A DNA stretch of 64,000 nucleotides from contig NZ_JALKBY010000001.1 in the NCBI RefSeq assembly GCF_023223645.1, forward strand, positions 186,001-250,000, read 5' to 3'. Each line of letters begins with the position of its first letter. The stretch's first letter is position 1. The position numbers were made by a program, and so were the translations under genes. Of this stretch, positions 58,973-62,479 are shown piece after piece. The DNA comes from Natroniella sulfidigena (GTDB lineage: Bacteria > Bacillota > Halanaerobiia > Halobacteroidales > Halobacteroidaceae). The notes under the pieces are model-generated. The model saw only the letters and a list, made by a program, of their open reading frames with translations, was not told the origin of the DNA and searched no databases.

Positions 58973-61900
58973 ATGTTAAGCAAACGGGGAGCACAATGGA
59001 AATTAAAGGATGATGAACAGGAAAATATCAACGATTTGGTCAAGGAGTTAGGATTAGATCCAGTAATAGCCAAAATATTAGCCAATAGAGGTTTAAAAGC
59101 TCCTCAGCAAGTAGAGGAGTTTTTAGATTTTAGTTTAGAAAGGTTAAATGATCCTTACTTATTACCAGATATGAAACAAGCGGTAGCTAGAATTAAAGCG
59201 GCTATAAAAGGTAATGAGCAGATAGTTATTTATGGTGATTATGATGTTGATGGGATTACAGCAACTTCATTATTGGTGGATTATTTAAAAAAAATAGAAG
59301 CTAAAGTTGATTATTATATTCCTAATCGCTTAGAAGAGGGGTATGGTTTGAACGTATCTGCTCTAGAGTCATTAGCCCAGAAAGGTGCTAAGTTAATTAT
59401 TACTGTTGATTGTGGAATCAAAGCCCACCGACAGATAAAGCATGCCAATCAATTAGGATTGGATATGATTATTACCGATCATCATCATGCTCCACAACAG
59501 CTTCCTGATGCTGTAGCAATTGTTAATCCTAAACGAGCTGATTCTTCCTATCCTTTTTCTGAATTAGCAGGAGTTGGAGTTGCTTTTAAATTGGCTGCTG
59601 CTTTGGAATTAGAAGTAAGAAATAAGGATTTAGAGTCATTATATCAAGAGTACTTAGATTTAGTAGCCTTAGGGACAGTAGCTGATATTGTTCCGCTAGT
59701 AAAAGAGAATAGAATTATGGTCAAGCATGGTTTGGTCAAAATTAAAAATACAGCTAAGTTAGGTTTAGCTGCTTTGGTTGAAGTTTCTCAATTGGCGGAT
59801 AAAGAGATCAATACAGGAAGAGTAGGGTATAATTTGGCCCCTAAGATCAATGCTGCTGGTAGAATAGGTGATCCAGCTTTAGCAGTTGAGTTATTATTAG
59901 CTCAAGAAAAATTAGAAGCTAAAAGGTTAGCTAAAAAGTTAGAACAATTAAATAAGCAACGTCAAGAGATAAGTCGGCAGATGTTTGAGGAAGCTGAAGC
60001 GATTATTGAACAACTAGATTTGAAAAAAGAGTGGTTTCTTGTTCTTGCTTCTCCTAATTGGCATCCTGGAATTGCTGGAAATGTAGCCTCTGATATCTGT
60101 GAAAAGTATCATCGTCCTACCATTTTGATTTCTCAAGATAGTGCTGGAAAATGGCAGGGGTCAGGAAGAAGTATTAAAGGGTTTAATATTTATGATGCTT
60201 TATTAGCTAATGAACAACTGTTAGAACGATTTGGAGGGCATAAGCAAGCAGCTGGATTAACAATTACTGAAGAGAATATTAAGAAATTACGAGCTAATTT
60301 AAATGATTATATTAAGCAAAGCTTAGAAGCTAGTGATTTAAAACCTGTATCAAGAGTTGATGTTGAAGTAGGATTTGATCAGCTTGACTTTGCTTTGGTC
60401 AATAAATTAGAACAATTGGCTCCGTTTGGTTTGCGAAATCCTCGTCCTGTATTAATGAGCAAAGATGTTACTGTCAAGAATTTTAGAGTGGTAGGTAAAG
60501 ATGGTAAACATCTTAAATTGACTGTAAGTTCAGCAGGAGAGGTAATTGATGCGATTGCTTTTAACCAAGCAGTCCTAGAAGCAGACTTACTGGAACAAAA
60601 GCAGGGGATTGAAGTGTTATTTAATGTAGAGATTAATCAATGGCAAGGAAATAGCTCATTACAGTTAAAGGTTAAAGATTTTAAGTTTCCTCAATCTGAT
60701 TTTATAACTAATATGTTTATTAGAGGAAGAAGAAAAACAGATGCTGCTCAATTAGTTACACCAAAAAATTGTTATACGGAATTTGTTGAATTATTATCTA
60801 GCACTCCTTCTCAACAGTTGGAAAGTTTGGCCGTTGGGGATAGATTGTTATTAGTTTCTGAAGTAGATGATTTATCAATCAAGGTGTTGACTTTTGAGCA
60901 GAGGATAATTGGTTATTTGAGTGAAAAATTAAGTAGGCAGTTAATCCCTTCTCTTATCTTAGGCATTGAGTATGATGTTGTTATATCTCAAATAATAGAT
61001 CATAATGATGGATTACAGTTAAAGGTTTTTATTCAACAGGCAACAGATAAGGAGCAAATAAGTGAGACTGAACTGGAAAGTGAGCAACAAATTTTAACTG
61101 AGTTTGATTCTCAGCAAATTTATGACAGTTTAATCAAACAGCAGAATACTTTGGCAGTTTGGCCTGCTGAAAAGATTAATTTGAATACGTTAGCAGAAGT
61201 TAGCGCTTTAGAAGTTATAAAACTTGCTCAAATTGTTGTTGTGGTGATTCCATTTGCTAGATTAACTAAGCAGCGTTATCGATTCTTTAAAGAAAAACTA
61301 TCATCTTGGGGTATTAAAGTATTTAGAGGTTCTTCTTCGCTAACTTTAGAGGAGAAGGAGGAATTAAAATTCAGGTTGCATACGGGCCAACTTGATCTCT
61401 TATTAGTTACACCTGAATTTGTTAAATCTCATTTAGAAGCTTTAGATAAAATTAAAGACAAAGTTGGTCTGTTAGCACTAGATTATAATTATGAACTAGA
61501 ATTATCTAGATCGCAATTTCAGCAATTCCATCAAGTAGCATTAAATTTAATTGATTTATTTGCTGAATCATCAATTTTAGCATTGCTTGCTAAAGTTAAT
61601 TCTGAGTTGAAGAAGAAAATAACTACTGAGTTGGAAATTGAAGAAACTGTAATTGCTGATGTTGAACCCAACAACTATTGTTTATTAGATAATAGGAATC
61701 ATTTTAATAAAATAGGTTATATTAAACAGCTTATTGCTCAAGAAGAAAAGGTGATGATCTATGTCAATACTCAACAACAAGCTATAGATTTAGCTATTAA
61801 GCTAAGGGCCAACAATCCAGATGTGACTGATAAGATTATTTATTATCATTCAGCTTTAACTACTACAGAAAAGAATCTAATTAAGGATAAATTTAAAACT

Positions 61901-62479
61901 GGAGAACTAGAGGCTGTTGTGGCTACTGAGCCACTTTGTTTGATTGAAGTTATTAGAGGGGTTAATCATATTATCTTTGTCCAACCACCTTTTAACCAAT
62001 CTGAATTTAATGATTATATTGCTCAAGTTAAAAAGAATGAAGAAGAACTTACAGTTCATCTGTTGTATCAAGACCAGGATTTAGAGACTAATCAAATCTT
62101 GTTGGAGCGATTAAATCCTGGACGAGAGATATTGGTTCAATTATATATCTTGCTGGTTGAAGAGAGTAGTGAAGATGGAGTGTTGGTTATAGCTGAACAA
62201 GAGCTGGTCGATTTATTGGCCCTAAGAGTAGGAGAAAATGTTATCCCTAAGACTATTGTAGCTGGATTAGATATATTTATGGAGTTGAAGTTAATAAATG
62301 TTTTAAAACGAGAGCAACATAACTTGAGGATTAAATTATATCCTCAACCTAAGGCTAAACTAGACTTAGCAAGTTCAATGCGTTATAATGAAGGTGTTAA
62401 GGAAAAAAAGAGATTTGACAAGTTTAAAGAGGCTTTTCTTAATAATCAAACAGAAAAATTAATAAGTTTGATTAATTGA
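58973..62479 (+). CDS. recJ: Single-stranded-DNA exonuclease RecJ with large RecQ-like C-terminal extension
   Basis: 1168 residues, against about 570-800 for usual RecJ. The N-terminal half is normal: GDYDVDG (88-94), TVDCGI (about 145), TDHH (168-171), DHHA1 with ERFGGHKQAAGLT (about 420) and an OB domain (about 460-580). The rest (about 600-1168) has no exact helicase motifs, but the order VVVIPFARLTKQ, LLLVTPEF, LLALDYNY, MIYVNTQQQA, YYHSALTTTEKNLIKDKF, EAVVATEP and VNHIIFVQPPFNQSEFNDYI follows RecQ motifs Ia to VI. The Walker A lysine and DEAH are absent. One continuous frame; AATGGAGGG before ATG. Confidence 0.9.
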   Translation: MLSKRGAQWKLKDDEQENINDLVKELGLDPVIAKILANRGLKAPQQVEEFLDFSLERLNDPYLLPDMKQAVARIKAAIKGNEQIVIYGDYDVDGITATSLLVDYLKKIEAKVDYYIPNRLEEGYGLNVSALESLAQKGAKLIITVDCGIKAHRQIKHANQLGLDMIITDHHHAPQQLPDAVAIVNPKRADSSYPFSELAGVGVAFKLAAALELEVRNKDLESLYQEYLDLVALGTVADIVPLVKENRIMVKHGLVKIKNTAKLGLAALVEVSQLADKEINTGRVGYNLAPKINAAGRIGDPALAVELLLAQEKLEAKRLAKKLEQLNKQRQEISRQMFEEAEAIIEQLDLKKEWFLVLASPNWHPGIAGNVASDICEKYHRPTILISQDSAGKWQGSGRSIKGFNIYDALLANEQLLERFGGHKQAAGLTITEENIKKLRANLNDYIKQSLEASDLKPVSRVDVEVGFDQLDFALVNKLEQLAPFGLRNPRPVLMSKDVTVKNFRVVGKDGKHLKLTVSSAGEVIDAIAFNQAVLEADLLEQKQGIEVLFNVEINQWQGNSSLQLKVKDFKFPQSDFITNMFIRGRRKTDAAQLVTPKNCYTEFVELLSSTPSQQLESLAVGDRLLLVSEVDDLSIKVLTFEQRIIGYLSEKLSRQLIPSLILGIEYDVVISQIIDHNDGLQLKVFIQQATDKEQISETELESEQQILTEFDSQQIYDSLIKQQNTLAVWPAEKINLNTLAEVSALEVIKLAQIVVVVIPFARLTKQRYRFFKEKLSSWGIKVFRGSSSLTLEEKEELKFRLHTGQLDLLLVTPEFVKSHLEALDKIKDKVGLLALDYNYELELSRSQFQQFHQVALNLIDLFAESSILALLAKVNSELKKKITTELEIEETVIADVEPNNYCLLDNRNHFNKIGYIKQLIAQEEKVMIYVNTQQQAIDLAIKLRANNPDVTDKIIYYHSALTTTEKNLIKDKFKTGELEAVVATEPLCLIEVIRGVNHIIFVQPPFNQSEFNDYIAQVKKNEEELTVHLLYQDQDLETNQILLERLNPGREILVQLYILLVEESSEDGVLVIAEQELVDLLALRVGENVIPKTIVAGLDIFMELKLINVLKREQHNLRIKLYPQPKAKLDLASSMRYNEGVKEKKRFDKFKEAFLNNQTEKLISLIN

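Follow-up and report, generated by a model that had tools for sequence, protein, structure and literature searches.

The recJ locus and the domains of its product

The window, i.e., the whole stretch of 64,000 nucleotides of Natroniella sulfidigena DNA that was analysed, contains one long open frame (58973..62479, plus strand, ATG start) that encodes a RecJ of 1168 aa, as the preliminary description of this DNA had stated. The gene order around it is secD, secF, two other genes, recJ, apt, and relA; the order secD-secF-recJ-apt-relA is the usual place of recJ in Firmicutes. The recJ model TIGR00644 matched residues 29-570 with 617.9 bits (cut-off 396.9), which assigns the protein to this family. 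All of the nuclease motifs (DYDVDG, DHH, GTVAD, GSGRS, and GGH; sites at residues 89-94, 168-172, 234-238, 396-400, and 421-423) were intact. By its sequence, the protein is a RecJ nuclease with a predicted 5'-3' exonuclease activity on single-stranded DNA (ssDNA). The positions of its domains are listed in Table 1.

Table 1. Domains and replaced motifs of the RecJ protein encoded in the window
Feature	Position in the window	Strand	Basis and remarks
RecJ core (DHH, DHHA1, OB), residues 1-569	58973..60679	+	TIGR00644, PF01368, PF02272, PF17768; nuclease motifs intact
Post-OB linker	60680..60769	+	Alignment; alike across fusions, reused as start of prophage stand-alone helicase
Degenerate HIRAN, residues 600-690	60770..61042	+	Aligned to PF08797-positive relatives; motif table
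RecA1-like domain, residues 705-880	61085..61612	+	DEAD PF00270, recQ models; motifs I, II, and III destroyed
Walker A position, PAEKINL for GTGRGKS	61163..61183	+	Motif table
Motif II position, DYNYE for DESHH	61481..61495	+	Motif table
RecA2-like domain, residues 900-1045	61670..62107	+	Helicase_C PF00271; motifs V and VI destroyed
Motif VI position, FNDYIAQVKKNE for FNQQSGRAGRDG	62006..62041	+	Motif table
Winged-helix-like domain, residues 1046-1110	62108..62302	+	Alignments; AlphaFold secondary structure
C-terminal tail with LDLxSSxRYNEG motif	62303..62476	+	Alignments; identity comparison

The core is followed by an extension of 599 residues. In Pfam, the extension matched Helicase_C (PF00271) over the cut-off (32.9 bits, 8e-8) and DEAD (PF00270) below it (20.5 bits). 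The NCBIfam recQ and recQ_fam models matched residues 751-1050 with E-values of about 1e-14 to 1e-15, and with 54 bits the protein lies under the curated RecQ cut-off. Its best PDB match by phmmer was E. coli RecQ (1oyw, 1.5e-4). A profile constructed from nine degenerate extensions, including that of the window, matched RecQ at 99.7% (9.9e-27; reversed control 0.3%). The profile alignments and a medium-confidence model with RecQ-family matches recovered a pair of RecA-like lobes with a winged helix behind them; neither the zinc part nor the HRDC part of RecQ could be recognized in the extension.

None of the Walker A, DExH, motif III, and motif VI sequences is left in the window protein, and all of them are present in 32 relatives; in the motif III column, for instance, ALLAKV replaces the AVTATA of the intact form. 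Since RecQ models and profiles match the extension and every ATPase motif has been replaced, it is correctly labeled as RecQ-like and, as far as the motifs can tell, catalytically dead. The preliminary description had proposed precisely such a module, devoid of nucleotide-binding and hydrolysis residues and ending in a winged-helix-like tail, and both proposals were confirmed (RecQ models at about 1e-15 and replaced motif columns for the former, alignments and AlphaFold secondary structure for the latter). Its domain layout was right in these two parts, but it overlooked a worn HIRAN domain at residues 600-690. In this domain the pocket motif N-x-[YHF]-D is lost (SEV----DDLSI stands there), and the window protein itself gave no Pfam match to HIRAN PF08797 (cut-off 24.7 bits). 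The best retained piece of the extension is the C-terminal tail, which is recognizable down to the RecJ of Bacilli (DL[ST].S..Y).

The AlphaFold model obtained with a four-row alignment was mediocre (pLDDT 60, pTM 0.33) and is used as supporting evidence only, because helicases among the rows bias it towards a helicase fold. Its first part is rich in beta strands; lobes of alternating alpha/beta structure come next (up to 87 in blocks of RecA2), and the end resembles a winged helix. Foldseek retrieved with it mostly RecQ-family helicases at E-values of about 1e-11, with low TM scores due to the uncertain packing of the lobes; the model without an alignment was uninformative (pLDDT 32). Thus the profiles and the RecQ-family Foldseek matches of the model both indicate RecA-like folds in the extension, whose absence had been named as an argument against the helicase assignment.

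Motif-intact fusions in related genomes

Seven genomes of the same order carry, at the same locus, a RecJ of 1210-1294 aa with an intact helicase part (motifs FR.KQ, GTGRGKS, YPLRALVNDQ, DESHH, AVTATA, and QQSGR[AV]GRDG). A profile search of 398 genomes of the window's phylum revealed 25 further intact fusions, bringing the total to 32 proteins of approximately 1200 aa that span 12 family groups (f1, f2, f22, f36, f61, f64, f85, f90, f97, f107, f122, and f128). The secDF-recJ-apt-relA locus is common to the intact, dead, and short forms of RecJ. In L082 (1215 aa), the sole fusion scanned with Pfam, DEAD (87 bits), Helicase_C (92 bits), and, between OB and the motor, HIRAN (57.0 bits, over the cut-off) were found. 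According to the motif table HIRAN occurs in nearly all intact fusions; among the 32 it is lost or missing in L178 and L179, and L180 is divergent. The DNA pocket of HLTF uses N90/N91 and Y93 (PMC4666394), which in our reading correspond residue by residue to the N-x-[YHF]-D motif of the intact fusions.

The motor cores of the intact fusions scored about 140-210 bits with the RecQ models, i.e., below the cut-offs (219.8 and 640 bits). Judging by their motifs, these proteins are apparently working helicases. When a collection of contigs was searched with the degenerate extension, a RecQ of Muribaculaceae was the sole match. The idea that a RecJ had been newly equipped with a pseudo-helicase has to be abandoned: the window protein is a decayed form of the motif-intact RecJ-HIRAN-RecQ-like fusion of its relatives.

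Repeated decay of the motor and selection on the remnant

In the RecJ-core trees (80 cores, and a more careful tree of 38), dead and short forms were nested among the intact ones, and well-supported branches of the 38-row tree, which had no outside group for the root, force at least three changes of state. Within the window's own family, the fusion is intact in three genomes (G056-58), the fused motor is dead in the window genus and in two other genera, and L091 (857 aa) has lost HIRAN and RecA1; in a sister family L084 is dead and four others are intact. In the helicase tree, the fused motors grouped together, with seven RecQs across a branch of 100% support, and the subclades of fusions agreed with the RecJ-core tree; the placement of dead copies there is unsafe due to long branches. 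This agreement and the common grouping are as expected of one old, vertically inherited fusion. The data fit a single old RecJ-helicase fusion whose motor and HIRAN pocket would have decayed independently in several lineages.

Intact members from two families shared 64-66% identity in HIRAN and motor versus 45% in the RecJ core. Between the window genus and intact members of the other family, the values were 30-36% in helicase and HIRAN and 50% in the core. It is the motor, and not the nuclease, that has lost constraint. When the window protein was compared with L078 of the same genus, a single pair with a fairly high dS, dN/dS was about 0.34 in the extension and 0.13 in the core, and no stops were found; purifying selection thus continues to act on the extension within the genus. 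In the window lineage, the motor has been eroded more than the winged helix and tail; L085 and L084 showed no better retention of the tail.

Short RecJs and the PF10141 domain

RecJs of about 770-870 aa from the same class match the RecA2 and winged-helix half alone. Profile comparison of the ~820-aa RecJs half by half gave 99.1% (1e-18) for RecA2 and 99.3% (1e-20) for the winged helix, with 0.2% for the cross-pairs. Some of these ~820-aa proteins also match PF10141, the C-terminal domain of Firmicutes RecJ, which is present in B. subtilis RecJ; the window protein gave no match to it (cut-off 26.4 bits). A profile was built from eleven PF10141-bearing RecJs of Bacilli, most of which have the same gene neighbors as at the window locus. 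Its match to the intact fusions reached 91.8% and covered 202 columns that run collinear with RecA2 and the winged helix; with the ~820-aa class it reached 98.1% (reversed controls <1% in both cases). Neither the domains of the ~820-aa class nor PF10141 gave a detectable direct profile match with RecQ; therefore, the link between PF10141 and RecQ needs the intact fusions as intermediates.

From these alignments PF10141 looks like a helicase fossil, a description of which was not found in the open literature. The opposite order, with a PF10141-like domain being older and the motor grown around it, appears unlikely as far as an unrooted tree can tell, since a RecQ-like RecA2 would then have had to arise independently. 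The extension does not simply match the short known C-terminal domain of RecJ, an outcome that the preliminary description had allowed for; rather, the short domain is an apparent remnant of the same module. In family f3, four RecJs of 942-962 aa (L092, L093, L094, and L095) have extensions of 380-400 aa that match the ~820-aa class over the last ~150 residues alone, with the first ~200 residues outside the match.

Separate RecQ, second RecJ, and an apparently captured helicase

The window genome was suspected of lacking a separate recQ, yet it encodes one in a 708-aa frame (G000:C2:53456-54805). The presence of a separate RecQ told little about whether the fused motor was intact: 12 of the 32 intact-fusion genomes lacked one over the cut-off, as did 4 of the 11 others. 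Genomes with an intact fusion and no separate RecQ over the cut-off include G115, G186, G083, G163, G431, G306, G329, G235, G196, and G110, in which the fused motor may be the sole RecQ-type helicase.

A second RecJ of 764 aa is encoded in the window genome outside the secDF-apt-relA locus (G000:C30:39706-41301, minus strand; L113:3086-5380). Its C-terminal domain is weakly similar to the ~820-aa class (72%), and similar second RecJs on a long separate branch occur in several genomes of the class. Another second RecJ, with an in-frame TGA, is located at G044:C11:5893-7560 and is possibly a decaying paralog.

In G007, a provirus encodes a stand-alone protein of 648 aa with HIRAN (PF08797, 54.6 bits), intact motor, and winged helix (L097:4343-6289; G007:C1:750345-752282), in addition to the genome's own dead RecJ (L086). 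It starts at the post-OB linker of the fusions. An identical 7.9 kb stretch is present in IMG/VR as a viral contig (L196, IMGVR_UViG_2837169743_000001; helicase at L196:2998-4944), and the neighboring genes encode partition, DnaD-like, and SSB proteins. In the helicase tree this protein was placed among the fusions of its class, with the branching order unresolved. Apparently, a phage acquired this motor from a RecJ; a transfer the other way, from phage helicase to RecJ, seems less likely. On another viral contig, a small HIRAN protein of 188 aa (L197:3004-3570) adjoins an XRE/LexA-like repressor gene.

Discussion

In textbooks, resection in the RecF pathway is started by RecJ and RecQ, which act together as separate proteins. 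According to our reconstruction, the ancestral gene at this locus would have combined in one chain the RecJ 5'-3' exonuclease, OB, HIRAN, a RecQ-like two-lobed motor, and a winged helix. In the window genus, and independently in a number of further lineages, the HIRAN pocket and the capacity to bind and hydrolyze ATP disappeared, with the nuclease remaining fully constrained. The sequence comparisons make an origin of the window protein from such a RecJ-HIRAN-RecQ-like fusion very probable.

In the intact form, HIRAN and the motor would keep hold of the strand that has its 3' end at a break or gap, and the enzyme would unwind in the 3'-5' direction as RecQ does, so that the 5' end it displaces reaches the nuclease site of the same chain. 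The HIRAN domain of HLTF binds a free 3' hydroxyl, which Rad5 does not need (PMC7804152). RecQ is a 3'-5' helicase that assists RecJ at ends that are blunt or 3'-tailed (PMC4846377), which leads us to expect both unwinding and digestion in cis from the intact form. From the conserved motifs we infer that the intact fusions have helicase activity.

In the window organism, the separate RecQ would unwind in trans, and the dead module may be kept as a folded docking arm that acts via the winged helix and tail, with SSB as the most likely partner. Such an arm would keep RecJ at SSB-coated ssDNA and possibly hold the strand path. We favor docking to SSB because the winged helix and tail are the best retained parts, RecQ contacts SSB primarily through its winged helix (PMC11947617), and RecJ is abundant among the partners of SSB in B. 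subtilis (PMC3000357). In D. radiodurans, the C-terminal domain of RecJ binds the SSB tail (PMC4846377). By analogy with these proteins, a docking role of the dead module is a tentative assignment, with a little less than an even chance of being right; the explanation as a whole, comprising origin and docking, appears reasonably probable. It is possible that the pseudo-helicase guides or loads resection.

We rank the SSB-docking arm ahead of three other functional readings. The dead helicase might have been recruited as a strand scanner or clamp, similar to the inactivated domains of AddB and RecC that read Chi on the strand running past them in resection. Chi is bound by the dead SF1 folds of these proteins where ssDNA used to be tracked (PMC4824097), and the fold in the window lineage is also retained under purifying selection; however, the RecJ chain has no active motor, and it is the track-forming RecA1 and RecA2 that have lost most constraint in the dead lineages (0.42-0.57 and 0.44-0.64 of the intact level), which makes a scanner improbable. 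We give just as little credence to a passive relic without present function that is heading for deletion. Constraint on the extension is down by about half in the window lineage, and losses in the family were stepwise, from the disappearance of HIRAN and RecA1 in the 857-aa L091 down to the ~820-aa RecJs. Nevertheless, about 600 codons are open and free of stops in the window genus, L084, and L085, the dN/dS is about 0.34, and a remnant of RecA2 and winged helix persists across the class and, as PF10141, in Bacilli.

Close to the idea of the preliminary description is a dead module that serves as a direct dock for the separate RecQ (or for a different motor) and thereby activates or loads this helicase. 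RecJ and RecQ do work together (PMC4846377), and a full RecQ is kept by the window genome and by all dead-fusion genomes of its order. But RecQ is also retained in those genomes of this order whose fusion is intact, and it is missing from three genomes with a dead or further reduced module (G060, G075, and G096), so that no clear link connects a separate RecQ to the dead module; we find this reading slightly less credible than the previous two. As for a merely chance or compositional resemblance to helicases, single-sequence PDB matches are indeed weak (1.5e-4). Against this stand the RecQ models at 1e-15, the profile match at 1e-26 with reversed controls below 1%, and a continuous series leading to intact relatives at the same locus, which together rule such a resemblance out for practical purposes.

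Compared with known systems, the intact fusions share with RecQ (TIGR01389/TIGR00614) a motor core with RecQ-type motifs followed by a winged helix, but they score below the RecQ cut-offs, lack the zinc and HRDC part, and are joined to RecJ and HIRAN; in the window protein, moreover, all motifs are dead. With bacterial RecJ (TIGR00644) they have the nuclease core and the locus in common, and PF10141 is apparently homologous to their RecA2 and winged-helix half, whereas the window protein and its relatives retain a far larger extension than the PF10141 RecJs. By description, domain IV of the Deinococcus-Thermus RecJ is similar in being an additional C-terminal domain, with the SSB tail and HerA as binding partners, but it is short (~175 aa) and described as having no defined homolog (PMC4663267). 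HLTF and Rad5 also join HIRAN to an SF2 motor, and the HIRAN of human HLTF binds 3' ends; unlike the fusions, they are eukaryotic, with an SNF2 motor and no exonuclease. WRN and exonuclease-DinG likewise combine an exonuclease and an SF2 helicase in one chain, but their exonuclease is N-terminal and 3'-5', not a DHH-type 5'-3' RecJ, and the motor is active. AddB and RecC place a dead helicase fold inside a machine for DNA-end resection, but this is an SF1 fold in complex with active motors and, as far as tested, not homologous.

In the open literature, we found no description of HIRAN together with RecJ or of a RecJ-RecQ fusion; the RecJ-HIRAN-RecQ-like fusion is apparently undescribed. We rate as new the domain combination and the origin proposed for a known domain, and not the chemistry. 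A natural single-chain enzyme of this kind would make coupling, polarity, and loading directly testable without SSB-mediated assembly. The motor was switched off repeatedly while the partner nuclease stayed fully constrained, and this opens the role of a pseudo-helicase in resection to experiment. The series from intact through dead and half modules to PF10141 offers a likely ancestry for a Firmicutes RecJ domain without an assigned origin. Overall, the ancestor of a large part of the phylum probably possessed a one-chain resection machine that is still whole in many of its members, with PF10141 as the fossil of its motor.
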